Both the position numbers and the translations under genes were made by a program. Below the pieces are notes generated by a model that searched no databases, had not been told where the DNA came from, and saw only the letters and a list, made by a program, of their open reading frames with translations. Shown piece by piece: positions 4,081-27,100 of a stretch of 33,240 nucleotides of DNA. Source of the DNA: a virus; the IMG/VR virus record IMGVR_UViG_3300029927_000045, positions 1-33,240 of that record; one strand, written 5' to 3'. Within the stretch, counting starts at the first letter, position 1; the number at the start of each line of letters is the position of its first letter.

Positions 4081-4813
4081 TTAATATCTCGTATGCTTGT
4101 TTAACCACAAATGGAACTTGCCCATTGCCAATGGCTTTAAGCTGCTCCATCCCTGTGGCCACAGCATCAGTATTTCGTTTGAGCACGGTGTAATCATCTT
4201 GTGAAAGCATCTCGCCGACTGCTCTTGAATATTGCCGTCCGAATGATTCTTTCGTACCAGGCTTGATATATTGCGAAATGTCCATGCTTTCGAGCATTGC
4301 GCAGTTGGTCTGAGTAACGAGAATCCATAGTCTCTGGCTTTCGCATATACCCCCCACTTCTGTACTTCCCAGCACACCCCATCTTGCATGTAGCCCCATT
4401 TCGGCCAGGTCTGCGAATATATGTCTAATGTATTTGTGACCAAGCAAATTTGGGACGTTTTCCAGCCATGCGATTTTGGGTCGAATGATGCGAATACACT
4501 CTTTCGTTTCAAACCACATATTTCTGTCGTCGCGTTCTGCTTTTGCCCGCCCACATATGCTGAACGGCTGGCATGGGAACCCTGCTGTGATAACATCAAC
4601 CAATCCCTTATAGCTGTCGGCGTACCCCTCACGGATGAATGCTCTGATATCGCCGAATATTGGGGCGTTGTCGAGCAAACCGTCTTTGATTCTCTGAGCA
4701 AGTATTCGCTGACAGTAGTCGTTAAATTCAACATATCCGACGGGGTTCCAACCCATTATTTTTGTGCCCAGCAATCCGCCTCCCGCACCAGAAAACAACG
4801 AAAGCTCTCTCAA
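4064..4813 (-). CDS. Phage C5-cytosine DNA methyltransferase
   Basis: The 249-aa product carries the ordered motifs of DNA (cytosine-5) methyltransferases: I '[10 protein letters not shown]' (SAM binding), IV 'GFPCQPFS' with the nucleophile C81, VI 'LENVPNLL' with E118, a VIII-like 'ESQRLWIL', and X 'AIGNGQVPF'. It is short; only about 60 residues lie between motifs VIII and IX/X, so the target-recognition region is very small and sequence specificity is unclear. No partner restriction gene is present, so it is probably a solitary enzyme that protects phage DNA from host restriction or marks it. The start is TTG at 4813, overlapping the SSB stop (TTGA), which may keep its translation low. Confidence 0.88.
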
Positions 4814-11964: not shown

Positions 11965-12143
11965 TTCTGAATAGACGGGTCGGTGAAAACATAGTGATAG
12001 GAGACGATATCACTGTAACAGTATTAGGCGTCAGCAGAAATCAAATTAAAATAGGTGTTAAAGCGCCAAAGCACGTAAGCGTGCACCGTGAAGAAATTTA
12101 TGCGCGGATTCAAAGTGAGAAAAAACAGGAAGCAAAATTGTGA
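11958..12143 (+). CDS. csrA: CsrA translational regulator (phage-encoded)
   Basis: The 61-aa product is a full-length Csr[21 protein letters not shown] at the start, then '[31 protein letters not shown]'-type core with the RNA-binding edges beta-1 (LILNRRVG) and beta-5 (VSVHREEI, with the key Arg at about position 44). CsrA dimers bind GGA-containing mRNA leaders and alter translation and stability of carbon metabolism, motility and biofilm genes. A longer frame from 11829 is an artefact; ATG 11958 with GGGA upstream is the natural start. Its stop overlaps the next gene (GTGA). Confidence 0.93.
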
Positions 12144-13075
12144 GTGTCTCGCTGATAACAGTCCTGATTTTACTTGCAATCATTGTGATTGTCTGTCTTG
12201 CCGTTTATCAACTATCACGGTCATATAGAACAATACATAAAATACTTTACAAAATCACAGCACAACTACCCTGTCGTCTCATAGACGTTAATGGCAGTCC
12301 ATACATGGAGCGATACGCTATGCCGAAATTTCTGCGTACTGCACTTAAGCGATTAGGTTTCACGGCCTATCTCCATCGCTTTGTCAGCAGTGACAGTGAA
12401 CGTAACGTACACGATCACCCCTGGCCCTGGGCTATCGCTTTTGTTCTAACCGGGCGCTACATCGAGCAACGCGTAACCGGCCTAGACATCGAAAACGGAT
12501 GGATCTCTAAATTGCAAACGATACGCTGGTTTAACCGCTTGGGTAGTCTCGATTTTCACTGCATCACCAAACCCCAACCCAACACCTGGACATTGTTTAT
12601 CCATGGTCCGCGCACCAAAAGCTGGGGATTTTTGGAAGCCATCGACACCGGCACCGTCTACCACCAACCCTACGACGTCGCAGCCACCCTAGACTGGGAA
12701 TCTAACAGCCAGACAGGCCAGCACACTTGCCGCCAGCCGCGCGAATTGAGCGCGACGCAGTGCAACGTCAATCGGGTAAACCCCATAGTGCTGTCAGACG
12801 CATTTATTGACAACCTTTTTCAAGGCACCAACTTTGGCGCCGAAATTAACGGGTGTGTTAACAAAAAGCGTGACTTTATAGCCTCGATTCTACGCAAACA
12901 GACTGGCGGACATTGGTCAGGACAGACCGCTTACGCTCTCGTCATTAATGCTGGCTTTGTGACAGATGCGCCGGCCCGCCAACATAAAAAACTGACAGCC
13001 CTTGGCGCCGCGTACATGGACGAGTATGTACGCGGCACAGGCGATTCTCCCGCGCCGGCGAATTTTGAGAAATAA
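12140..13075 (+). CDS. Membrane-anchored cupin-like protein
   Basis: 311 aa starting at GTG 12140 (GTGA overlap with csrA). Residues about 4-26 form one transmembrane helix ('[19 protein letters not shown]'). Residues about 75-175 look like a small cupin: '[21 protein letters not shown]' carries the HDHP metal-binding box, with '[18 protein letters not shown]' and 'SWGFLEA' completing the barrel. The C-terminal 120 residues are not recognised ('[20 protein letters not shown]'). Standalone phage cupins of this type are known but unexplained; fusion to a membrane anchor is unusual. Substrate unknown. Confidence 0.7.
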
Positions 13076-13557: not shown

Positions 13558-14535
13558 ATGGCAGCACCGAGAAAGATAGCGAACGGGAAATGGATTGTTG
13601 AAATATGCGTCAAGCGCAGGCGCAAGTCTAAAACGTTTGATTCTAAAATTGAAGCGAAAAGCTGGGCTTTTGAGACAGAAATACAGCTTGGCAGCTCAGA
13701 TAAGATCGTGCGCGGCCGCACCATTGCTGATTTGTGCAAGCGATACGCTGAAGAAATCGTGCCATCGCATAAGGGCCACCGGTGGGAGCTTATCAAGCTC
13801 AACAGCTTTAAAAATGATTACATCGCTGATGACGCAATTAGCGAAATGTCATGCGATGATGTTAACGCATGGATTGTTAGTCGCAGCAAGACTGTCTCTA
13901 ACGCATCCATATGCCGCGAGCTTAACTTGCTATCAAGCATGTTTACTTATGCTATCAAGTGCAAATGGTGCCGCGACAACCCCGTCAGCAAGGCTGATAA
14001 GCCAAAGCAGCCCCCGCCGCGCGATCGACGAATCAGCAATGAAGAAATCGAATTGATCACTTCTGCGCTCGATTACCAAAAAAAGCCCGCTGCGATCGAT
14101 ATGCGCTTTGAATTAGCGACAGCTTTTTTGTTGGCGATTGAAACAGCTATGCGCCAGGGTGAGATTTGGGGCTTATACGACTCAGATATCTACTTAAACG
14201 ATCGGTTTGTACGACTTAATGACACAAAAAACGGCACTAGCAGAGACGTGCCTTTGACCAAAAAAGCCATTGCACTTATCGAAAGCCTTAATTTAAAAAA
14301 AGGTAAGCTATTTAAATCAAGTCAAGCATCGGCTGGCCAGCTTTTCACTCGCACCATTAAAATTTTGGGGATTATAAACTTAACGTTTCACGATACGCGA
14401 CACGAGGCCCTCACCAGGCTCGCGCGTAAGCTTGACGTGTTAGACCTGGCGCGCATGGTTGGTCATCGCGACCCGCGCTCGCTGATGATCTACTACAACC
14501 CCACAGCGTCAGAAATAGCAAAAAGACTTGACTAA
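13558..14535 (+). CDS. int: Tyrosine site-specific integrase
   Basis: A 325-aa integrase. N-terminal arm-binding part (residues 1-60, 'RKIANGKWIVEICVKRRRKS'), a core-binding SAM-like domain (about 60-165) and the catalytic domain. Catalytic residues: Arg in 'ETAMRQGEIWGL' (about 199), 'HDTRHEALTRLA' (His/Arg about 278-281), 'GHRDPRSLMIYYNP' with His and the nucleophilic Tyr (about 312). Start ATG 13558 has no clear Shine-Dalgarno and sits directly after the second arm-repeat pair, so binding there could feed back on int expression. It would recombine attP with attB and, with the AlpA-like factor, excise. Confidence 0.95.
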   Translation: MAAPRKIANGKWIVEICVKRRRKSKTFDSKIEAKSWAFETEIQLGSSDKIVRGRTIADLCKRYAEEIVPSHKGHRWELIKLNSFKNDYIADDAISEMSCDDVNAWIVSRSKTVSNASICRELNLLSSMFTYAIKCKWCRDNPVSKADKPKQPPPRDRRISNEEIELITSALDYQKKPAAIDMRFELATAFLLAIETAMRQGEIWGLYDSDIYLNDRFVRLNDTKNGTSRDVPLTKKAIALIESLNLKKGKLFKSSQASAGQLFTRTIKILGIINLTFHDTRHEALTRLARKLDVLDLARMVGHRDPRSLMIYYNPTASEIAKRLD

Positions 14536-14560
14536 CCCAGAACGCGGGTTAGTCAAGTCT
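14524..14560. repeat. 15-bp perfect inverted repeat over the int stop codon
   Basis: AGACTTGACTAACCC (14524-14538), a 7-base spacer, GGGTTAGTCAAGTCT (14546-14560). The int stop TAA (14533-14535) is in the left arm. As RNA this is a very stable hairpin, but no T tract follows on either strand, so it is not a standard intrinsic terminator. It could be an RNase III site controlling int mRNA, as lambda sib does, or a protein site. Confidence 0.8.
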
Positions 14561-14598
14561 ATAAGTCCCATTTATTTTAAATATATATAGCAAAACGC

Positions 14599-14635
14599 TT
14601 TACATTGTAGATATAGTGAGGTACTATAGCTACAA
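14599..14635 (+). promoter_or_regulatory. Promoter inside a large palindromic operator (acr operon)
   Basis: TTTACA (14599-14604), 17-nt spacer, TACTAT (14622-14627). Spacer, -10 and start point all lie in a 31-bp palindrome: left arm TTGTAGATATAGT (14605-14617), 5-bp spacer, right arm ACTATAGCTACAA (14623-14635), with 12 of 13 positions paired. A dimeric HTH protein bound here would shut the promoter. The leader then runs to a strong AAAGGAGA site before ATG 14702. The small HTH gene at 15955 is the natural candidate regulator. Confidence 0.8.
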
Positions 14636-14701
14636 GGTCGACAAACAAGTTGGCTACCGCGCCTCGGGACTTGGGGCACAAAATCTCAAAAGGAGATAGA
14701 A

Positions 14702-14992
14702 ATGACTATACAAGTAATAACACAAGAAACAACTAGCCACGATCTTTTTGCAGCGCAAATAATATATAAAGACGCTGACATTTTGATTATTGCTATCCCA
14801 TCAGAATTTCTGCCAGCGGAAGAAAATTCAGAGTTTTGGGCGGACGATCCCGTTTTGGTTTCAATATCCGAGGAGTCTGTATTTCAATCAAAATCTTGGT
14901 CTTTTACTCACGAAATTGGAAATATTTCAATCATAAAATATTACAGCTCAGACGAAGAATCGCTTAAGGCTACTGTCAAAGTTAATGACTAA
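14702..14992 (+). CDS. Unknown small acidic protein, first gene of the acr operon
   Basis: A 96-aa acidic protein with a strong Shine-Dalgarno (AAAGGAGATAGAA before ATG 14702). Alternating beta-like stretches ('AAQIIYKDADILIIAIPSEF', 'WSFTHEIGNISIIKYY') suggest a compact alpha/beta or beta fold; no motif or family is recognised. Being first behind a strong regulated promoter and coupled (8-bp overlap) to the AcrVA2-like gene, it is a candidate inhibitor of a host defence system by association only. Confidence 0.65.
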   Translation: MTIQVITQETTSHDLFAAQIIYKDADILIIAIPSEFLPAEENSEFWADDPVLVSISEESVFQSKSWSFTHEIGNISIIKYYSSDEESLKATVKVND

Positions 14993-15953
14993 CCACCCAA
15001 ATCGGGGGCGCATACCGCGCCCTCTTACTTTTTTGCACTCAATCAAAGACGACTATCCTAATGCCTGGTCGCAGCTCGATGAGCTGCGCAGAGACCGGGG
15101 CACAGATATACCAAATTGGCCGGATTGGTGTTTTTGTCCGATGTCCGGTTGGTATGCTGTCGTTAGCTCTGAGCTGCAAGTTAATGAGATCAGTCAACTA
15201 TACATTGCTGATGTCGCAAAGCTCGCAGCGCTCGGTGCTTGGCGCTATACGCAATCAATATACCGCTTTGATGAGACAGTTTATCAATCTCTTATCGAGA
15301 CCGTGCCGCGCGGCGCTATACCAACTGATGTGATTTATCGGATGCCAGAATGGTGCCTCTATATTGAGACGCCAAAAATGCGCTGGATGACTCACAACTT
15401 AGCTGGGTTTTTTGCGCACTTAGAGTATGACGTTAATACAGAGCGTCACGAGCTGCGCTTATTGCTCGATACTGATGATCAACTGATACCTTTTGTGTTG
15501 CACTTGGGCGCATGGACAATAACAGAAGCTATCGATAGATCACTAAGTGAGACGGTAAAAAAAGCAGAAAAAGTGGGAGTTGCATTTAACAAATCAGACG
15601 ATCTTGTTATGCAAATGAGCGAATCGGTTTATTCTTTGATATCACTACTACTGTATGTGTGCAGTGACGGCGTTGAATATAACGGCAATCAAAAGCCATC
15701 ATTTCCACAGCCGAAGCGTACAAAAAAAGGCTGGAGATTGTTCCCTGCGGCCAAGCCAAGATACTGGGATTTGTGCAAACAAACCGGCGACAGAATACGC
15801 GCCGCCGCCGGCGGCGGATCAGGTAAAAAAGCACCTCACATTCGGCGCGCGCACTGGCATAGCTTTTGGGTGGGAGCGGGTGATGATAAAAAACTAACTG
15901 TAAAATGGCTGCCGCCGATTGCGGTTGCATCAGACAACAATACAGAGCAATAA
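14985..15953 (+). CDS. AcrVA2-like anti-CRISPR protein (candidate)
   Basis: This 322-aa protein has the length and conserved blocks I recall for the AcrVA2 family: an N-terminal 'NAWSQLDELRRDRG' helix, 'KLAALGAWRYTQSIYRFDE', 'MPEWCLYIETP', and the very conserved end 'PHIRRAHWHSFWVGAGDD' followed by 'KLTVKWLPP'. AcrVA2 lowers Cas12a levels by recognising the nascent Cas12a N-terminus and triggering loss of its mRNA; homologues occur on phages and plasmids, including in hosts not known for Cas12a, so the target here may differ. Coupled to the upstream gene and followed by a small HTH gene, as acr-aca loci often are. Based on remembered family features, not a search. Confidence 0.75.
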   Translation: MTNHPNRGRIPRPLTFLHSIKDDYPNAWSQLDELRRDRGTDIPNWPDWCFCPMSGWYAVVSSELQVNEISQLYIADVAKLAALGAWRYTQSIYRFDETVYQSLIETVPRGAIPTDVIYRMPEWCLYIETPKMRWMTHNLAGFFAHLEYDVNTERHELRLLLDTDDQLIPFVLHLGAWTITEAIDRSLSETVKKAEKVGVAFNKSDDLVMQMSESVYSLISLLLYVCSDGVEYNGNQKPSFPQPKRTKKGWRLFPAAKPRYWDLCKQTGDRIRAAAGGGSGKKAPHIRRAHWHSFWVGAGDDKKLTVKWLPPIAVASDNNTEQ

Positions 15954-15954
15954 C

Positions 15955-16152
15955 ATGCAAGCAATAACACTAAAAAATTATATCGACAAATATTACAGCG
16001 GAATGCAACGTGCCTTTGCTAACGCTAACAACATTGCGCCGCCGCAAGTGACGCAATGGCTAAACAAAGACTTTATTGTTGTCGATAATAAGCTGTATAG
16101 CGCGCGCAGAGTGCTGACAGCAGAAAAAGCTAGCCGCCAGACACAGCCTTGA
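15955..16152 (+). CDS. Small Cro-like HTH protein, possible Aca-type autorepressor
   Basis: ATG 15955, two bases after the AcrVA2-like stop, gives a 65-aa protein; a longer frame from 15919 runs back into that gene and is less likely. 'QAITLKNYIDKYYSGMQRAF' then 'NIAPPQVTQWLNKDFIVVD' is a Cro-like HTH with recognition helix around 'PPQVTQWLNK', and 'LYSARRVL' follows as a dimer strand. Anti-CRISPR loci commonly end in such a gene, whose product represses the acr promoter; the palindrome over the promoter at 14599-14635 is a fitting site. Its end overlaps the convergent membrane gene by 23 bp. Confidence 0.72.
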   Translation: MQAITLKNYIDKYYSGMQRAFANANNIAPPQVTQWLNKDFIVVDNKLYSARRVLTAEKASRQTQP

Positions 16153-16399
16153 AATAATTTTCTGCGGCGTGCCAAGCTAGCGTACCCAGCAAACCCAGAA
16201 AACCACCAATAGCACTGATTATGCCCCAACCGTAAACTTTCTTTTTTATTGCTTCGTTACGCTCAATCGCCAGCTTTCTTTCGCTCATTAAAATAGCGAT
16301 AAACTGATGATGGTCGGCATGGCTTATTGCATCTATTCTATCGCGCTCGGTCAGCACTTCGTTGATGGCGTTTTTTATGTCGTCTTTGCTGAGCTGCAT
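16130..16399 (-). CDS. Small membrane protein, possible holin-type
   Basis: 89 aa: a charged, helical N-terminus (residues 1-52, 'KDDIKNAINEVLTERDRIDA') and one hydrophobic segment at about 57-77 ('GWGIISAIGGFLGLLGTLAW'), then a short polar end. Last gene of the lysis cluster on the minus strand. One transmembrane span and location would suit a pinholin, antiholin or spanin-like role, but no specific family is recognised. Confidence 0.6.
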   Translation of the reverse strand: MQLSKDDIKNAINEVLTERDRIDAISHADHHQFIAILMSERKLAIERNEAIKKKVYGWGIISAIGGFLGLLGTLAWHAAENYFKAVSGG

Positions 16400-16405
16400 A
16401 TTCGG

Positions 16406-16816
16406 TTAGTCCACTTTGCACGATATTGTTTTAATTCCATTCTCGCCGACCGGCGAGATAAGCTGTATATCGATGGGTATCCAATACGATTTTATAGCCA
16501 GTCTTATTTTTAGTATGTGCCTGCAGTCGCGGGGAGACTCTACTATTAACACTACCCCTGGCTTGCGGCCTGTAACTGTCGCGTAATAAATAGATTGGCC
16601 GATGCTCTCAGCCCATTTGCTTGCGAAATCATATTCGACTGCATAGCCACCTACCATGCAGTCGACGCGGGTCGCATCAGGCAAACGGTATTCGACAATG
16701 CCTTTGCAGTGTTTGTCTTGATACCAGCGCTCGGGATGTTGGCGTTTAGCGTAACTGGGAAAGGCAATTATGCAGACTGACAGCGCAAATAATAATAACT
16801 TTAGATAGGTTTTCAT
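16406..16816 (-). CDS. Exported PD-(D/E)XK-like nuclease-related protein
   Basis: 136 aa with a clear signal peptide (residues 1-23, 'LKLLLFALSVCIIAFPSYA'). The mature part has 'EYRLPDATRVDCMVGGYAVE' then 'YDFASKWAESIGQSIYYATV' and 'GVVLIVESP', a block seen in small phage and bacterial proteins with a restriction-endonuclease-like core (D, E, then K/Q on the next helix). Several Cys residues fit an exported protein. Export of a nuclease-like protein could act on incoming DNA in the periplasm, hence superinfection exclusion, but this is inference. Two bases from the hydrolase gene. Confidence 0.6.
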   Translation of the reverse strand: MKTYLKLLLFALSVCIIAFPSYAKRQHPERWYQDKHCKGIVEYRLPDATRVDCMVGGYAVEYDFASKWAESIGQSIYYATVTGRKPGVVLIVESPRDCRHILKIRLAIKSYWIPIDIQLISPVGENGIKTISCKVD

Positions 16817-16817
16817 G

Positions 16818-17435
16818 TCAGCCTTCTATGCGCGGCAGCTCGGCAGCCGCCATCAGTCTATGCGTCCAATAGCTTGCTAGCTCGCGTGTTTTAAATTGTC
16901 CTCCGTGACCTTTAACCGCGTGCGGCCCAACGCACATATTGATGTGTGCATCGTAACGCGATTGTTTGTCAAAACCAAACCGCCCCGCCGCACCCCAAAG
17001 ATGTCGTCCATACTTAAGCCGCAGCGGCGAGAGATAAGCGCCCCAGCGCCACAGCTTGCTAGCTAACGCAGGTGTGTCGGTAGGATTGTAAGCAACGACG
17101 ATACGGCTCGCTGTATCGCGCGGGAAAACAATGCTTTGGTCAAGCGCAGGATTGAGCATCATTAAAGCGCTCAAGCCTTGCAAGCCAAACTCGCGCGCAG
17201 CTTGATAAGCAATAGCAGCACCGTTGCTGTGTGTAATTAGGGCATCGCCAGGCTTGATTATTGAGCCAAGCAATCGAGCAACGGTTTCGTTGATCGGACG
17301 TAGATTAATCAAGCCAACATGGCCATAATTGATAATCTGCGGCGTGTGGCCCATCTCATAAATCGCTGGCGCGCAATTGCCGACAGTATTCTCGGGCTTG
17401 CGCACGTTAAAGCCGTGCAGCAAATAGACGGTCAT
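16818..17435 (-). CDS. Alpha/beta-hydrolase (lipase/esterase-like)
   Basis: 205 aa. 'VYLLHGFNVRKPENT' gives the oxyanion-hole HG motif, 'LITHSNGAAIAYQAA' the nucleophile elbow with Ser about 70 (HSNG in place of GHSxG), 'VVAYNPTDTPA' the acid-bearing strand and 'GPHAVKGHGGQF' the catalytic His about 176. No signal peptide. It starts ATG 17435, overlapping the 38-aa gene (ATGA). In the lysis cluster next to a transglycosylase it might attack outer-envelope esters, in the way LysB does for mycobacteriophages, though that parallel is only functional. A metabolic or moron role is also possible. Confidence 0.8.
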   Translation of the reverse strand: MTVYLLHGFNVRKPENTVGNCAPAIYEMGHTPQIINYGHVGLINLRPINETVARLLGSIIKPGDALITHSNGAAIAYQAAREFGLQGLSALMMLNPALDQSIVFPRDTASRIVVAYNPTDTPALASKLWRWGAYLSPLRLKYGRHLWGAAGRFGFDKQSRYDAHINMCVGPHAVKGHGGQFKTRELASYWTHRLMAAAELPRIEG

Positions 17436-17548
17436 CGCTGCCGCTCTGCCAGCGGCATCGCTGTTTGTATAATGAAATCAAGCACACTAACAACTGTTAG
17501 CACATCATCAACGTCAAGTGTGCCGGCATCGATGAGTTTATTGTGCAT
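17432..17548 (-). CDS. 38-aa small protein between endolysin and hydrolase
   Basis: ATG 17548 preceded by GGAGA; overlaps the transglycosylase stop by 11 bp and the hydrolase start by 4 bp (ATGA). It reads MHNKLIDAGTLDVDDVLTVV and then a mildly hydrophobic helix ('SVLDFIIQTAMPLAERQR'). Tight packing on both sides and a ribosome site argue it is translated. Function unknown. Confidence 0.6.
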   Translation of the reverse strand: MHNKLIDAGTLDVDDVLTVVSVLDFIIQTAMPLAERQR

Positions 17549-18041
17549 GGTTTTCTCCAATTATTGTGTAATACGAATGTACAAATTCGTCGATTGTGCC
17601 TTTGCCCAGTCGCGTGTTGTAGTGCCGTTTCCAGTACATTGCCAACTGCTCGATATTGTCTTTTTGCGGCAGCCAAGCTTTTACTCGTCGATAATGCAAT
17701 CTGCACATTGCTGTCGCATAAAACGCGTTGCCGATCAGCAAATGATGCCGCGGCATATCGTTGTGCCAAATTGCACCGATTCCGTAGAGCATTTTATCGC
17801 GTAATTTTTGCTTATAAGCCAGGTAGTTTTGCCAAATGTCATCGTGTGTCGCAGGCTCCATTTGATATAAACCAAGCGCCGGGCCTCCGCCTATTTGTTT
17901 GACAAAATCAAACTTTGATTCTTGCGCTGCGGTGCCGAGCACTAAACGCACAGCCGATTCGCTATGCATGTTTAACTCCTTCAGCACCGGCTCGACGATA
18001 TAATCGCGATATTGCTTTACCGCAATGGCTTGATAATTCAT
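17538..18041 (-). CDS. Endolysin, lytic-transglycosylase-like
   Basis: 167 aa. 'VRLVLGTAAQESKFDFVKQ' places the catalytic Glu at 41, followed by 'GPALGLYQMEPATHDDIWQ', the 'G..Q..P' substrate-binding motif of goose-type/SLT transglycosylases; 'AMYWKRHYNTRLGKGTIDEF' is the closing helix. No signal peptide, so it needs a holin or would act from the virion. First gene of the lysis cluster, it would cut the glycan backbone of peptidoglycan. Confidence 0.8.
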   Translation of the reverse strand: MNYQAIAVKQYRDYIVEPVLKELNMHSESAVRLVLGTAAQESKFDFVKQIGGGPALGLYQMEPATHDDIWQNYLAYKQKLRDKMLYGIGAIWHNDMPRHHLLIGNAFYATAMCRLHYRRVKAWLPQKDNIEQLAMYWKRHYNTRLGKGTIDEFVHSYYTIIGENHAQ

Positions 18042-18257
18042 AGCTATAAAAATCCAATTTTTTTGAGTGTAAACTCAGGAAGTGTAGGGCTATTAACTAA
18101 GTTATAAAACATAATTAGATGTACGTAATAAATTAACTAATATGTGTTTACATCAGTTGTAACCACTTAAATCTAACGTAACAGTGGATAGACGCTCCGC
18201 CACTAGAAATTTATTTTCCGAATAAAGCGAAAAGCAGGGTCGAACTTTGACAATGGT
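18042..18257. other. AT-rich intergenic gap, no gene
   Basis: 216 bp between the last tail gene and the endolysin. No convincing ORF. Minus strand has AT-rich promoter-like words (TATAAC near 18103) but without a good -35. TTACA-TCAGT-TGTAA and repeated ATTAACTAA words are present. It may hold a weak late promoter for the lysis cluster. Confidence 0.4.
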
Positions 18258-20876
18258 TTAAATTACTCCGATATTTAACAAGCGTGGGTTATCGCCCTGA
18301 ATTTGCAAGATTTGGACAATGTCACCACTCGTCATGAAATTGAAGACGTTTTCGTTATCGTTATATGCATACGACAACGATAAAACGGTGTTTCCATTAA
18401 AATCAGATTGACCATCGACTGATAGCGTCAGTCCTGCTGTATCTGTGAGTTTTGGTGCATTAAGGCTTCCATGGAATGGCAAAATATATTTAATAAACGT
18501 TCGGTTTTCTATGTTTACATCAAAGCTTTCTGGGTTTAACGGGAATGTTTCTCCGGGCGACAAAATAGCTCTACAAGCAGCGCTTGGACCGGTAGGCGGC
18601 TGCGCACTGAACACAGTATCCTCCACTATGTTGGTAATTAGGTTCTTAGAAAATATCTTTGACCCACCGACATAAACTTCAAGGTCAAGCAAATGCGTCT
18701 TCATTCCATTCGATATACCTGATATTATTGCGCCAGTGGCCGTTGTTGTTTCTCTTTGTCTTAGTATCACCACTGTTAGTGACCTGATGTCTAAATAAAT
18801 AATTTCCGACTGTTCTATTGTTCTTGTTCGGCTCCTAACAGGTTCGCCAGGATTAAAAAGTGTTCCAACACGAACCCAAGAGCTGTTGTCAATAAGACCT
18901 GAAGTAAAAAAAGGAAATCGAGTTGAACCTATTTTTAGGCCAACGCCTAGCTCAACACTGTCGTTCCTAAAATCCGTCAGCTCTTCATCGCGTAATCCAA
19001 ATCGCTCTTGTGCAAGAAGTCCATTTGGCCCTGCTTCGTTTAATATGTCTATAAAGAGGCCTGCGCCTAATGCTTCAATAGTAGCAACGATTTTACTATC
19101 ACCATCAAATGCTGCACCGATTTGATGTTGGCCAGTCATGATATGCCTTGACTGCAAAACATATTCACCGCCTGAATTTCTTCCTTCAGTATAAAAACAC
19201 TGATTATTGATGCGCTGATTCGTATGTAAATTAATGTAGTTTATTTCTTGTTTCGATAAGTTTGCAGATACGTCTGATGTGTTAAGACTATCGATGCCAT
19301 TAAAAACCAGGTCGACGCTTTCTGAAAAAAACGTTCCCACAAAAGAATTTGCAGTCAGTTGAAAATTATCGCCCTCGGGACCTAGGTTAAATACGAAGTC
19401 GGGGCGTAATGTTGGATGTGTGAAAGATTGCTGGCTTGTTGCTCGGGAACATGATTGATTGATTTGCCAGTCTGCACCCCAATTCATTTGATCTTGTAGC
19501 AGACTCAACGTATCAACCTGATGCCAGCCTTCCGGCGCTGTAATAGCATCAAAAATACTGCGCGACAAATCCAGCTTGTTTATTTTGCGCCAAACAGTTA
19601 ATGACGATACCCGTGCTGTCACCGCAATTATATATTTCCGACTGGGCGTCAATGCTGCGCCACGAAGAGTTTCTCCTACTGGAAGCCTTGCGTACTGCGC
19701 ACCGCGTCGGTAAATACGACTAGTATCGGTTGTTAATAATGTATCACCTTGGTTTTTCACAGCCCATGCCTGCCTACCAAAACTAACATTTTGATCACGG
19801 GAAACGGCAGAAGGGTTAGCTCTAAATATCACTTGGTTGTGCGACCCGCCTACTGTACCTAATGGCGCGTTAATGGCAACTCCCCCGTCATCCGCGAATG
19901 GCTGACCCCATCCGCCAGGGGCAGAATCTGAAACTGGTATTGCAACAAACCCTGCTGTACATAATTTTGGATTGTCAACGAACCCTATAACAACAGGGTT
20001 TGCAATATTTCTGGACATGAATTCGACGACAACTGTGTCACCTACGCTGAATACAGAAGAGCCGCAGCTCATATATTTAACCTCAACATCTTCGAACGTT
20101 GTCTGTTGATTGATGTTGATGTTTTGATAATTGCTGTGCGCATCATTCAATGTGACGTCCAGAGTTTCATCGCTGACCTTGTCTACCATTGCAACACGGG
20201 ACCCTGGGTACCATTTCTGTAAGCCGGGCAATAGTGCTGCGTTATAAAAAGCAGCGGACGCACTACCCGCATTAATAGGTGAGAATTGTCCGTCACGGTT
20301 AGCATTAAATTTCGCATCGCCGAAAAATCCTGGCCGCAAAATAACGGGTTTAAGATTTTTTTGGCCGCCAACTATTTCAGAGCCCGAAATTTGCACAGTG
20401 TTATTTTCAAATAGCTCAGACTCAATATCAATGGTACCTACTTCACCTTCCAAATTTTCTGTATAGTCAGCGCACCATGCTTCCGAGACAATACTATCTA
20501 CAAGCGCGTCTAACTTTTTTAATTCCTCATTAAGGCTGGCAAGCTCTAATTGGGTTTGATTGAAAATCACATCAGCTTGTATTCTTCTAATTTCAGCGCC
20601 CAATCTAAAGATTTGGTGCGCCGAGGATAGTTCCTCTATAGTAATTTCACCATCACTAAATCTTTGAATGACAACATCAAGCTCTGACTGTGCGGCCAAA
20701 AAATCTATTTGTGCCTGCGCCCTGTCTGCCTCAAGCGCTGGAATCGTTTCGGTTTCAACTATGTTTATACGCTCAAAAATTATCTGTCGTGTCGCTTGTG
20801 CTGCTGTTGTATCAAGATCAAGCCTAACAAGATATTTTCCGCTGCCAAGATTGTTTAAGATGGTCGCTTTGCCCAT
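18258..20876 (-). CDS. Large tail tip/baseplate-region protein
   Basis: 872 aa. Residues about 40-130 are strongly helical and likely coiled coil ('ALEADRAQAQIDFLAAQSEL'), followed by beta-rich segments ('GDTVVVEFMSRNIANPVVIG') and a long C-terminal part with many N/S/T/G residues and 'LTLSVDGQSDFNGNTVLSL'. Last virion gene of the tail block, 2 bp from the LamG protein upstream. Location after tape measure and minor tail genes indicates a tail tip or receptor-binding structure. No enzymatic motif seen. Confidence 0.65.
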   Translation of the reverse strand: MGKATILNNLGSGKYLVRLDLDTTAAQATRQIIFERINIVETETIPALEADRAQAQIDFLAAQSELDVVIQRFSDGEITIEELSSAHQIFRLGAEIRRIQADVIFNQTQLELASLNEELKKLDALVDSIVSEAWCADYTENLEGEVGTIDIESELFENNTVQISGSEIVGGQKNLKPVILRPGFFGDAKFNANRDGQFSPINAGSASAAFYNAALLPGLQKWYPGSRVAMVDKVSDETLDVTLNDAHSNYQNININQQTTFEDVEVKYMSCGSSVFSVGDTVVVEFMSRNIANPVVIGFVDNPKLCTAGFVAIPVSDSAPGGWGQPFADDGGVAINAPLGTVGGSHNQVIFRANPSAVSRDQNVSFGRQAWAVKNQGDTLLTTDTSRIYRRGAQYARLPVGETLRGAALTPSRKYIIAVTARVSSLTVWRKINKLDLSRSIFDAITAPEGWHQVDTLSLLQDQMNWGADWQINQSCSRATSQQSFTHPTLRPDFVFNLGPEGDNFQLTANSFVGTFFSESVDLVFNGIDSLNTSDVSANLSKQEINYINLHTNQRINNQCFYTEGRNSGGEYVLQSRHIMTGQHQIGAAFDGDSKIVATIEALGAGLFIDILNEAGPNGLLAQERFGLRDEELTDFRNDSVELGVGLKIGSTRFPFFTSGLIDNSSWVRVGTLFNPGEPVRSRTRTIEQSEIIYLDIRSLTVVILRQRETTTATGAIISGISNGMKTHLLDLEVYVGGSKIFSKNLITNIVEDTVFSAQPPTGPSAACRAILSPGETFPLNPESFDVNIENRTFIKYILPFHGSLNAPKLTDTAGLTLSVDGQSDFNGNTVLSLSYAYNDNENVFNFMTSGDIVQILQIQGDNPRLLNIGVI

Positions 20877-20878
20877 TT

Positions 20879-22330
20879 CTAAAGCTCTTCAACATCCATA
20901 AATTGTGACGCTTGGCTAAAATTCATGCTGATAGCACCCACAACAAATTGTTCGCCGACTGTATCGACCGTATCGCCAGGCTTAAGGTGTCGATCAATGG
21001 GCGCGCGAATTCTGCGGCGGCCTTGGTTTCTTGATATGGACACCGCATTAGTTATCAGTCTTGTTATAACCGATTCAATTACAAGTGTGGAATTTCCTGA
21101 AAGTGTTCCCGTGTTCGCTCGCGCGCCTTGATCTTGTCTAAACGTATTGACCTGAACGTTGACGATCTGGTCGCGCACTATTGTCCCGTCCTGCAAAACG
21201 TCTCCCTCAAAAACTGTTAACGTGCCGCCATCAAGGCGATCTGAAATGACGGTAAATAATGTGGCAAGGTTTGGAATGGTTATCGATAAAAAAGAATTTC
21301 CATTAGCTCTCAATCTCAATTGGAAATTAGATATAGGTATTTCTATTTCATCATTATAAGCATTTTTTAACGTCGCAATATAGACCGTATTAACTGGCAT
21401 GTCGACCAGCTCACGAATTATGCGAGGAGGCACAAACCGCAGCGACATAGCGATGGAAATATTTTTTAAAATGTTGGTGGGGAATGGTGACGTGAATACT
21501 ACTGCCTGATCAAACGACAGCAACATAACAAGCGACGGGATTTCCGCCACAGGCGTTTGAATACCTGGAAACGTAAGAGCCATAATTAGTGACGGCACAA
21601 TATTAGCTTGTATTGGCTTGCTTGTAGTGCCCTGTGCCAGCGTCATCGCTATGCTTAACAATGGCAGTTCAGATAATGCTAATTCTCGATGCGCTGATAA
21701 TTGCATCACCGTCAACGCGTCATGATACAAGGCGAATTCGTCAAGTCGGCCGTTAAACCACTGCGCACCATCTAATCCACCGAAAACCAGCCCGTCGACA
21801 CTGGGCGTCAATACACCATCCAGCGAGACCACAGCCGTTTGTTGTGCTCCATCAACAATCATATAGGCTGTTGCACCCGCCTGGTCGTAAACAATTGCAA
21901 CATGGTGCCACTGGCTATCATCTAGTGACGAGTTTGATTGTAGCTGCGCAGAACTCAAAGATGTCGATAGATCTGCTAGTAATATGCCTGCAGTTGTGAC
22001 GACATCAAGCTGAAGTTTTATGCCGATACCATCAAAAAAGACAATGCCAACGTCACCCGGATCGAGATTAAACCAAAGCTCGACGGAAGCTGATTGATTA
22101 GGCTCGTAAAACGCACGTGCAGGCGCACCGATAGCACTGTTATCAACAAATAAAGGTGACAAAGACGATCCAAACGCGCCAGGCTGGCCAAGGATAGCTG
22201 GCCCTGCGCCGATAATACTGTTTGTTGCATCTTGGGTTAAAATTTCATCGGTAATTATTAACCCAAAGGGTTCTTCAAATCTATAATATATGACGGCACC
22301 ATCGTCGATGACCAGGTCGCGATAATTCAC
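20879..22330 (-). CDS. LamG-domain minor tail protein (copy 2)
   Basis: GTG 22330 gives 483 aa starting (V)NYRDLVIDDGAVIYYRFEEP; I prefer it to the further upstream start because the paralogue at 24088 begins in the same way (MSYRDAVLADNPISYWRFEE). Residues about 10-215 form a LamG/concanavalin jelly roll ('SVELWFNLDPGD', 'DDSQWHHVAIVYDQAGATAY', 'GRLDEFALYHDALT'). The C-terminal 200 residues ('RRRIRAPIDRHLKPGDTVD') also match the paralogue. LamG domains in tails bind glycans, so it is likely part of the host-recognition apparatus. Confidence 0.75.
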   Translation of the reverse strand: MNYRDLVIDDGAVIYYRFEEPFGLIITDEILTQDATNSIIGAGPAILGQPGAFGSSLSPLFVDNSAIGAPARAFYEPNQSASVELWFNLDPGDVGIVFFDGIGIKLQLDVVTTAGILLADLSTSLSSAQLQSNSSLDDSQWHHVAIVYDQAGATAYMIVDGAQQTAVVSLDGVLTPSVDGLVFGGLDGAQWFNGRLDEFALYHDALTVMQLSAHRELALSELPLLSIAMTLAQGTTSKPIQANIVPSLIMALTFPGIQTPVAEIPSLVMLLSFDQAVVFTSPFPTNILKNISIAMSLRFVPPRIIRELVDMPVNTVYIATLKNAYNDEIEIPISNFQLRLRANGNSFLSITIPNLATLFTVISDRLDGGTLTVFEGDVLQDGTIVRDQIVNVQVNTFRQDQGARANTGTLSGNSTLVIESVITRLITNAVSISRNQGRRRIRAPIDRHLKPGDTVDTVGEQFVVGAISMNFSQASQFMDVEEL

Positions 22331-24439: not shown

Positions 24440-27100
24440 TTAAGCCGCCACTTGTGGTGTTGCTGCATCAATTCCAAGTAACAAATCTGCTTGCTCTTCT
24501 GATACGCGAATTTGAATTCTCTCAAGAATTCGAAACATGAAGGCTTCTAGTTCTGGCTCCAGTCCATCTGCGCTAATATTAATAAGAGAATCTCCGCGCT
24601 GTATGGCATTTGACCGCTGTCGGTTAAGCTCTATTGTCGAATTGATTAATCTTTCTTGCAAGCTCAACGCCTCATCTCTGCGTCGGTTTTCTGCTTCAAT
24701 TTGTCGTTCGATGGCTAGCTCTTGAGGTCTGTCTGCATCATTAAGATCGCCAAATAACCCGCCAATTAAATTTCCAGTATTTTGTACTGTGGCATTGATT
24801 GATTCAAATGAGGCTTCGACCAGTCTTGTTTGCTGCTCAAGCTGGGCAACGTTTATCGTGACCATCGCTTCGATGTTTGCGATTCGCTCGTTCGACGCTA
24901 TTTCTTCCAGTCTTGTTTGGAATTCTTCGGACGCTTCGGTAGCTTCAATGGCCGACTCGGCGGCCTGTCCGAAACTTTCAGATGCGGCCGCACCTATTTG
25001 GCGAAACGTTGGCACTCCGTCGACTAATATTTCTATCCAGCGTTGACTAGATTGCGCGGCATTATTTTGAGCCTGATCAACTTCACCAACGACACCGGTT
25101 AAAGCGTTATATTCAATGCCTTGGTCGCGAAAGGCCTGGGTCAATCTATTAGCTATATCGGTTCTGTCGAATTCAGCGCTTCGCGAATCGATAGTAGTTT
25201 GTAGTAATCGTTCAGACGCATCAGAGATTTGTTGGAACGCAGCAAGTTGCTCTTCGTATGCTTCAACCGATTGTCTTGTTGCCTGCTCATTACGCGCAAT
25301 CGCGTCGGTAGTTCCGTTGAGCCGACCTACAAGATTACTAATGCTGGTTATTACAGCATCATTAACCCCGGTCCACTCGCCGATCAATAAAACCAGGGCA
25401 ACGATAGCGCCTACCACGCCCCCTCGGCCCAGTATTGACAACAGCGACCCAAGACCGGATGTCAATGATGAAACAGTGCCTATTGCTCGTATAAATGTGA
25501 GTGCAGCTATGGCGGTTATGAGTCCGCCCACCGCAGAAATCACTGATGAAACTATTGGTAGCAAAGTGTCAAGTTGTCTGCCGAAACCAAGCACGTTTCC
25601 AATAGCGTTTTGAGTTTCTTCGCTGAGTCCGTTTATTCCTTCGCCACCTTGGCTCAGAGCAGAAAATAGAGGCTGAAACGATTCAACGATGCCACCAGTG
25701 ATCCTAACTAATGATTCACCGCTATTTATTATTGCCTGCAGTGCCTGCGTCAAGCCATCGGCTGTTGTTAAGTCGACTCCTCCAAACAGGTCGCTAAACT
25801 GACCAGCCAAATCACCAAACGAATCAATTAAACCATCAAAGTCCAGCCCTGCAAATGCTTCGGGCAAATTCTCTGCAATTGATCTTAGATCATCTTCAAA
25901 GCTGTCAAGGCTGGGGGACAATGCGTCGAAAAAAGGTGCCAGCCCTCCGCTACTTATGATCTCACTGAATGCTAATAATATGTCAGTGCTGGCGTCTGCA
26001 ACGCCTCGGGTTTGCGGTAAAAAGTTGGTGCCGATTGACGTGGCGGCAAGATTGAAACCAACACGAACCCGATCTAGTGACACCTGGGTCGAGTCAAGAC
26101 GAATCTGTAGTTCTGTTTGCGCGCTTCCCGCAGAGTTTGTTACTTCTTGTGTAACTTCCAGAACTCGGTTGAAGTTACCGACAGATAGAGCGAATGTGGT
26201 TGCTCTGTTTATGCCTGCAAGTTGACCAGCGTTATAAAGTTGTTGCTCTGGGGTGAGTTGCTGAAATGCTTCGGCGACGTCGAATAATATATCTCTACCT
26301 GATCTTAAGTCTCCATTTAAGTCATTTTGGCTTATTCCAAGGGTATCCAATGCGCCTATGACGGGTGCGGTGTCTGAGACAAGACGGATTAAAACAGTTC
26401 GCAATCCGTTTGCAGCCTCAGTGCCTGCTATTCCATTTTCAATAATTGGGGTGAGGAATCCGGCCGTCTCTTCAAGTGATAAACCGGCCAGTCTGGCTAC
26501 AGCAGAAACGCTCGATACGGCATCACCGATTTCATTAAAACTTGCACCAAAATTATTTGATGTGCTGTTTAGTACATCTAAAATCCTAGTTACGTCATCA
26601 GCTTCCAAACCGAAACCACGAATTGTTGAAGTTAAGATTGTGGTTGCTTGCTCTGCGGAAACCTCGGACACAGCAAGTGCGGTGAGGGAGCCTTCTACCA
26701 GAGCAATCGAATCTCCGATACCGAATCCTGCTTGCCTGAAATCTGCAAGTGACTGCGTTACTGTCGTGGCAGACGTACCGAACCTAAGCGCCATAGATTC
26801 AATCGTGTCAGCATAGTCGGACGCTTCTCCGTCGCTATCTGATAATACTCGTTGCAAGTCAAGCAAAGCACTTTCGAACTGCACTGCTTGATTGATAGAA
26901 AAAGCGAGTATGCCCGCACCTGCCGCCAATATTGCCGCATCGATGGCAAGGATGGCATTAGTTGTTGAAGCAAGAGGTCTTGCAAGTGATGATAGGCCGC
27001 CTTCCAGGCGAGACAAATCATTTTCAACGGCACGGGTAACCCGTGAGACATCGCTTCTGCCGCCAAAAACTATTTCAACTGTGCGAGTAAAATCAACCAT
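24440..27100 (-). CDS. Tail tape-measure protein
   Basis: 886 aa, the longest product here. N-terminal 'VDFTRTVEIVFGGRSDVSRV' and a TP901-type core (about residues 75-320: 'FESALLDLQRVLSDSDG', 'SLADFRQAGFGIGDSI', 'SSNNFGASFNEIGDAVSS', 'GLRTVLIRLVSD'). Hydrophobic spans in the middle (about 515-575) and coiled-coil ends. It sets tail length and is threaded inside the tube. ATG 27100 overlaps the stop of the chaperone extension (TAATG). Followed by minor tail genes. Confidence 0.93.
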   Translation of the reverse strand: MVDFTRTVEIVFGGRSDVSRVTRAVENDLSRLEGGLSSLARPLASTTNAILAIDAAILAAGAGILAFSINQAVQFESALLDLQRVLSDSDGEASDYADTIESMALRFGTSATTVTQSLADFRQAGFGIGDSIALVEGSLTALAVSEVSAEQATTILTSTIRGFGLEADDVTRILDVLNSTSNNFGASFNEIGDAVSSVSAVARLAGLSLEETAGFLTPIIENGIAGTEAANGLRTVLIRLVSDTAPVIGALDTLGISQNDLNGDLRSGRDILFDVAEAFQQLTPEQQLYNAGQLAGINRATTFALSVGNFNRVLEVTQEVTNSAGSAQTELQIRLDSTQVSLDRVRVGFNLAATSIGTNFLPQTRGVADASTDILLAFSEIISSGGLAPFFDALSPSLDSFEDDLRSIAENLPEAFAGLDFDGLIDSFGDLAGQFSDLFGGVDLTTADGLTQALQAIINSGESLVRITGGIVESFQPLFSALSQGGEGINGLSEETQNAIGNVLGFGRQLDTLLPIVSSVISAVGGLITAIAALTFIRAIGTVSSLTSGLGSLLSILGRGGVVGAIVALVLLIGEWTGVNDAVITSISNLVGRLNGTTDAIARNEQATRQSVEAYEEQLAAFQQISDASERLLQTTIDSRSAEFDRTDIANRLTQAFRDQGIEYNALTGVVGEVDQAQNNAAQSSQRWIEILVDGVPTFRQIGAAASESFGQAAESAIEATEASEEFQTRLEEIASNERIANIEAMVTINVAQLEQQTRLVEASFESINATVQNTGNLIGGLFGDLNDADRPQELAIERQIEAENRRRDEALSLQERLINSTIELNRQRSNAIQRGDSLINISADGLEPELEAFMFRILERIQIRVSEEQADLLLGIDAATPQVAA

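Follow-up and report, generated by a model that had tools for sequence, protein, structure and literature searches.

The window, that is, the whole stretch of DNA analyzed here, is an IMG/VR virus record of 33,240 bases from a temperate phage, in which an integrase is present. On its plus strand, a predicted promoter with two putative operators and a leader precedes three open reading frames, P0003, P0001, and P0002 (Table 1). The frames of P0003 and P0001 share 8 nt, and P0002 begins 1 nt past the P0001 stop codon, so the three tightly packed genes of 96, 322, and 65 aa described in the initial annotation were all recovered in place. The operon is flanked on one side by the integrase gene and its terminator-like inverted repeat and on the other by minus-strand genes that converge on it, among which the closest one with any suggested function is lysozyme-like.

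Table 1. Features of the operon and of its surroundings in the window
Feature	Position	Strand	Basis
Further HTH regulator, separate from P0002	7792-8163		
RecE/RecT-like genes	9.8-11.5 kb		
Integrase	13558-14535		
Terminator-like inverted repeat of integrase	14524-14560		
Predicted operator O1, TATAGCAAAACGCTTTA, over the -35 box	14586-14602	+	1 mismatch to AGTAAAACGCTTTA; aligned with relatives
Sigma-70-like promoter, TTTACA-17-TACTAT	14599-14627	+	Consensus scan; layout kept in relatives
Predicted operator O2, TATAGTGAGGTACTATA, over the -10 box, core of palindrome 14605-14635	14612-14628	.	Palindrome statistics, conservation
5' leader, three predicted hairpins (~14636-14655, 14659-14679, 14683-14697)	14631-14704	+	Folding, relatives
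P0003, 96 aa, family without a name, candidate anti-defense protein	14702-14992	+	ORF
P0001, AcrVA2-family protein, 322 aa	14985-15953	+	ORF, profile, AlphaFold2 model
P0002, Cro-fold HTH, Aca5-type putative repressor, 65 aa	15955-16152	+	ORF, PHROG, AlphaFold2 model
Lysozyme-like gene, convergent to the operon	17538-18041	-	
Tail and head genes	from ~24.4 kb onward	-	

Another IMG/VR contig (3300029926_000042) is identical to the window over 15010-20950. Searches for the host by DNA similarity (window 1-24000) and with the head protease found none. Within 1-24000, close DNA similarity to sequenced phages was confined to 4566-4812, where the match is a cytosine methyltransferase gene from Stenotrophomonas phage SOVA965 (76% identity). 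Shortly upstream of the integrase, at 12140-13075, a protein matching phrog_4786, annotated as cysteine dioxygenase, is encoded (E 1.7e-28).

P0003 matched nothing in Pfam, PHROG, NCBIfam, PDB, or annotated phages, in agreement with its earlier description as a protein of no known family, and PADLOC, Pfam, and NCBIfam returned nothing usable for either P0001 or P0003. A P0003 homologue with 49% identity was found in L160/L161 behind the same promoter and leader, and we regard P0003 as a candidate orphan anti-defense protein. In one phage (contig IMGVR_UViG_3300033050_000049, with loci L161 and L197), the P0003 homologue stands alone behind the same kind of operator, and the P0002 homologue is encoded elsewhere in the genome.

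P0001 and the AcrVA2 family

Homology searches and a structural model identify P0001 as a member of the AcrVA2 family and a distant relative of AcrVA2 itself. With the single sequence as query, phmmer matched P0001 to AcrVA2 (PDB 7ci1) at E 5.6e-18 (68 bits), while AcrVA2 matched a family profile built from 80 P0001 homologues at E 7.1e-51; the family is already gathered in phrog_6160 (E 1.5e-61). The AlphaFold2 model generated from the alignment of the 80 homologues had a mean pLDDT of 91.4. Its top three Foldseek matches were AcrVA2 chains (7ci2/7ci1; E 8.8e-19 to 2.1e-17, TM about 0.7), led by 7ci2_A (probability 1.00, TM 0.68-0.74), and no non-AcrVA2 structure was found under E 0.02. The AcrVA2 match first suggested for this frame was thus upheld by both profile and structure. 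Among the matches below significance were the ribosome hibernation factors protein Y, RaiA, and HPF (E of at least 0.025). The C-terminal blocks PHIRRAHWH and KLTVKWLPP, on which the initial annotation had relied, were correctly identified and are conserved among the homologues, with H285, R287, R288, H290, W291, H292, and W308 invariant or nearly so across all 80.

P0001 resembles AcrVA2 of Moraxella bovoculi (7ci1, 7ci2) in fold and length and shares with it the blocks GAWR-T, LPxWCxY, and HIRR-HWH...W-P, but it is only about 20% identical by structural alignment and shows 25-27% identity to two Moraxella homologues. In a tree made by a quick method with midpoint rooting, in which a long-branch warning means that distance counts and branching order does not, P0001 clustered with L011 and L090 (about 55% identity) and the Moraxella homologues sat on a very long branch. 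No AcrVA1- or AcrVA3-like neighbor of P0001 was seen; P0003 had no match in the PDB, which includes AcrVA1 and AcrVA5 entries (PMC13131331). Another phage-borne family member, the AcrVA2-like protein of Shewanella phage vB_SbaS_Y11 (PMC10846135), also has an unproven target; it is about 24% identical to P0001, has no identified Aca5-type neighbor, and has pocket residues that come from docking only (PMC10846135). Overall, the family was found in 19 phage records, 114 plasmid records (60 of them conjugative), 119 viral contigs, and 71 genome-contig matches. No companion gene specific to AcrVA2-like genes was detected; the neighbors vary and now and then include unrelated small HTH genes.

A strong hairpin (15003-15024) lies inside the first 17 codons of the P0001 gene, and the codons of this region agree with those of L012 more often than elsewhere (11/14 versus 66/145; Fisher p 0.024).

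P0002, its predicted operators, and the leader

P0002 matched phrog_10103 (E 1.1e-17), and its AlphaFold2 model has the beta-alpha-alpha-alpha-beta-beta layout of Cro (pLDDT 85.5), with Pfl6 Cro and lambda Cro as best PDB matches at weak E-values; the proposal of a Cro-like HTH protein was therefore confirmed at the level of the model. Relatives in Erwinia, Yersinia, Providencia, and Cronobacter phages occupy small cassettes, several of which adjoin lysis or Q genes, and their partner gene differs from phage to phage. The partner matches AcrIF11 (6kyf) in phiEt88 and fHe-Yen8-01 (E 4e-13 and 6e-13), and an AcrIF11 homologue lies directly upstream of the relative in 18 of 100 loci. Aca5 is described as a 60-aa HTH protein encoded downstream of acrIF11 in Enterobacterales (PMC7648647). 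Because relatives of P0002 are found directly behind AcrIF11 homologues, the arrangement on which that definition of Aca5 rests, we call P0002 Aca5-type, a label that refers to gene setting. The same relatives strengthen the Aca-like reading originally given to the HTH gene.

The likeness to acrIF11-aca5 operons, with Aca5 of Pectobacterium (WP_039494319.1) as the reference, extends to the size of P0002, to its place as the last gene directly behind the acr-like gene in one operon, and to the inverted repeats in the core promoter, of which Aca5 promoters often have two and the window has O1 and O2. Published Aca promoters contain a single inverted repeat or a pair (a pair was seen for Aca5), and repression of them takes place in E. 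coli (PMC9410906). The partner differs, being a type I-F/I-E inhibitor in those operons and AcrVA2-like here. The window was the only one of about 150 loci in which an AcrVA2-family gene stood beside a P0002-type gene, and the available portions of PMC7648647, PMC9410906, and PMC9765179 contain no mention of an Aca5-AcrVA2 pairing.

The promoter had been described as strong and embedded in a 31-bp palindrome. The palindrome (TTGTAGATATAGTGAGGTACTATAGCTACAA, 14605-14635), in which 12 of the 13 arm positions pair, was well above chance: in first-order Markov simulations, similar ones arose in 1 of 10 runs for the whole window and in 0 of 200 for the intergenic region. No second copy of the pattern is present in the window. 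In contrast, the bare promoter match (9/12 consensus positions) was at chance level, with 4 such matches found against 3.2 expected. The promoter is credible because its layout is conserved in related loci (L161, L163, L182, L200, L205, and others), not because of its consensus score. The view of the palindrome as the operator held for O2 but was incomplete, as the predicted operator consists of two sites, with O1 starting 26 bp before O2 and overlapping the -35 box. The element TATAGT-N5-ACTATA of O2 is conserved in relatives, and the center of O2 is GAGG in the window versus the TTTT usual for Q-type sites. Alignment of promoters revealed two sites in many Q-type loci, mostly 26-27 bp apart and 21 bp apart in L164.

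Operators and HTH genes were compared across relatives with consensus scans, which replaced a general search for the best palindrome ahead of each HTH gene because that search was too noisy. The pattern TTTACN{7,10}TATAGTGNNNTACTAT, drawn from the window and L163 and run on all IMG/VR viral contigs, matched 16 contigs from DNA alone, one of which (L180) is the design locus. In L182, which was not used in designing the pattern, a P0002 homologue (53% identity) lies about 220 bp downstream of the operator match, and this is hard to obtain by chance since the P0002 family was found in only about a hundred of 2.9 million viral contigs. Additionally, operator type tracks a single recognition-helix residue, Gln or Lys, across the 53 relatives compared. 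With consensus sequences partly built from the tested loci, which are themselves kin by descent, AGTAAAACGCTTTA (≤2 mismatches, ≤1300 bp upstream) was found in 22/32 Gln loci versus 0.53 expected, and ATAATCAATTTTTGATTAT or ATAAACCATTTTGGTTTAT (≤3 mismatches) in 18/21 Lys loci versus 0.0 expected, the association of the K operators with Lys loci having a Fisher p of about 2e-11. The window is one of the ten Gln loci without a match, as its own site falls outside the scanned span, 1331 bp ahead of the extended HTH frame. Cross-matches were few: 1 of the 21 Lys loci had the Q-type consensus, and 3 Gln loci had the second K-type consensus, at positions overlapping Q-type sites. Two observations on relatives, namely, the co-occurrence of operator and HTH family, in one case found from DNA alone, and the co-variation of operator type with the recognition-helix residue, speak for binding of P0002 to the palindrome and, together with analogy to known systems, make autorepression by P0002 likely. 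A predicted repressor switch on the operon is well supported by about 50 related loci.

The leader measures 74 nt up to and including the first start codon, and its last predicted hairpin contains the Shine-Dalgarno sequence. The same three hairpins were predicted in L026, in both operons of L280, and in L161, the locus with the P0003 homologue, with folding z-scores of -3.3 to -5.1 for the five sequences, a small set; the L280 and L026 leaders follow other promoters and precede other first genes. Stem 1 keeps its shape with unrelated sequences in the three groups, and stem 3, which holds the ribosome-binding site, changes at one pair from U-A to G-U to A-U. A scan of IMG/VR with a leader pattern found five contigs, all the same phages or close copies, and an Rfam search with the leader gave no match. 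The two L280 operons (L280:8230-10150) lie in tandem after an integrase gene with near-duplicate promoter and leader; the last gene of operon 1 is another, different small HTH-like gene, and operon 2 holds the AcrVA2 homologue.

A putative acr-aca operon and its target

We consider it probable that the stretch 14586-16152 represents an operon of the acr-aca type, in which one promoter drives P0003, P0001, and the Aca5-type P0002 and is autorepressed via two sites, because of the AcrVA2 match in sequence and fold, the AcrIF11-linked family of P0002, and the co-occurrence and co-variation of operators and HTH proteins. The sigma-70 promoter looks constitutive and would be transcribed at phage entry; such an early burst, which the initial annotation had also envisaged, is inferred by analogy with published acr-aca systems (PMC9410906). 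One transcript would yield all three proteins, and P0002 dimers would then occupy O1 and O2, closing the promoter. P0001 would probably act like AcrVA2, which causes translation-dependent loss of cas12a mRNA (review PMC13131331): the nascent peptide of a host defense protein would be recognized, and the corresponding mRNA would be lost. The Cro fold of P0002 and the presence of an integrase in a temperate phage would also fit a plain Cro-type repressor of the lysis-lysogeny switch that is not tied to the AcrVA2-like gene. We find this highly improbable, as the palindrome occurs in the window only at the operon promoter, the sole other near match to O1 (2 mismatches, 25100-25113) falls inside late-gene sequence, a separate HTH regulator is encoded at some distance, and the cassettes that contain the gene in related phages are small, adjoin lysis or Q genes, and vary in the partner gene.

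Within the acr-aca reading, the target of P0001 may be Cas12a, but the sequence comparisons make another target more likely, because the clade of P0001 is far from the Cas12a-associated clade. The core motifs, family, and fold shared with AcrVA2, and the activity of AcrVA2 on diverse Cas12a orthologues (PMC13131331), would suit a true anti-Cas12a protein that binds the nascent Cas12a N terminus and depletes cas12a mRNA in the phage host. Such a role seems unlikely given the very long branch to Moraxella AcrVA2 and the genomes of the family: Cas12a was found in 1 of 50 genomes bearing members, and in that one, Moraxella lacunata, the family member is a close orthologue of AcrVA2 (219 bits against 7ci1, versus 68 for P0001). 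Thus, Cas12a as the specific target was not supported. A surviving host free of Cas12a is compatible with an anti-CRISPR, yet it gives no support to Cas12a as the target. Cas1 was detected in 23 of the 50 genomes, and the 27 with no Cas1 match, the spread of the family over many plasmids (more than half of them conjugative) as well as over 100 viral contigs, and the prospect that peptide-guided mRNA silencing could be redirected raise another possibility, namely, a mobile-element anti-defense or gene-control factor that silences some other mRNA outside CRISPR-Cas. We hold this only tentatively, as the operon also contains an Aca5-type gene whose relatives accompany homologues of validated anti-CRISPRs. 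With similar reserve, we suggest that the AcrVA2 family might be a broad mobile-element class that silences chosen host mRNAs via the nascent peptide, with Cas12a as one target of many; the member in the window would be aimed at another defense protein and would have borrowed an Aca5-type switch, with the structured leader as a second level of control.

The operon joins a type V anti-CRISPR family with an Aca5-type repressor, a type hitherto tied mainly to type I inhibitors. The Gln/Lys operator code is readable and could be used to find more anti-defense operons from DNA alone, and, if hosts of the AcrVA2 family are mostly without Cas12a, the question of what this family acts on is sharpened.
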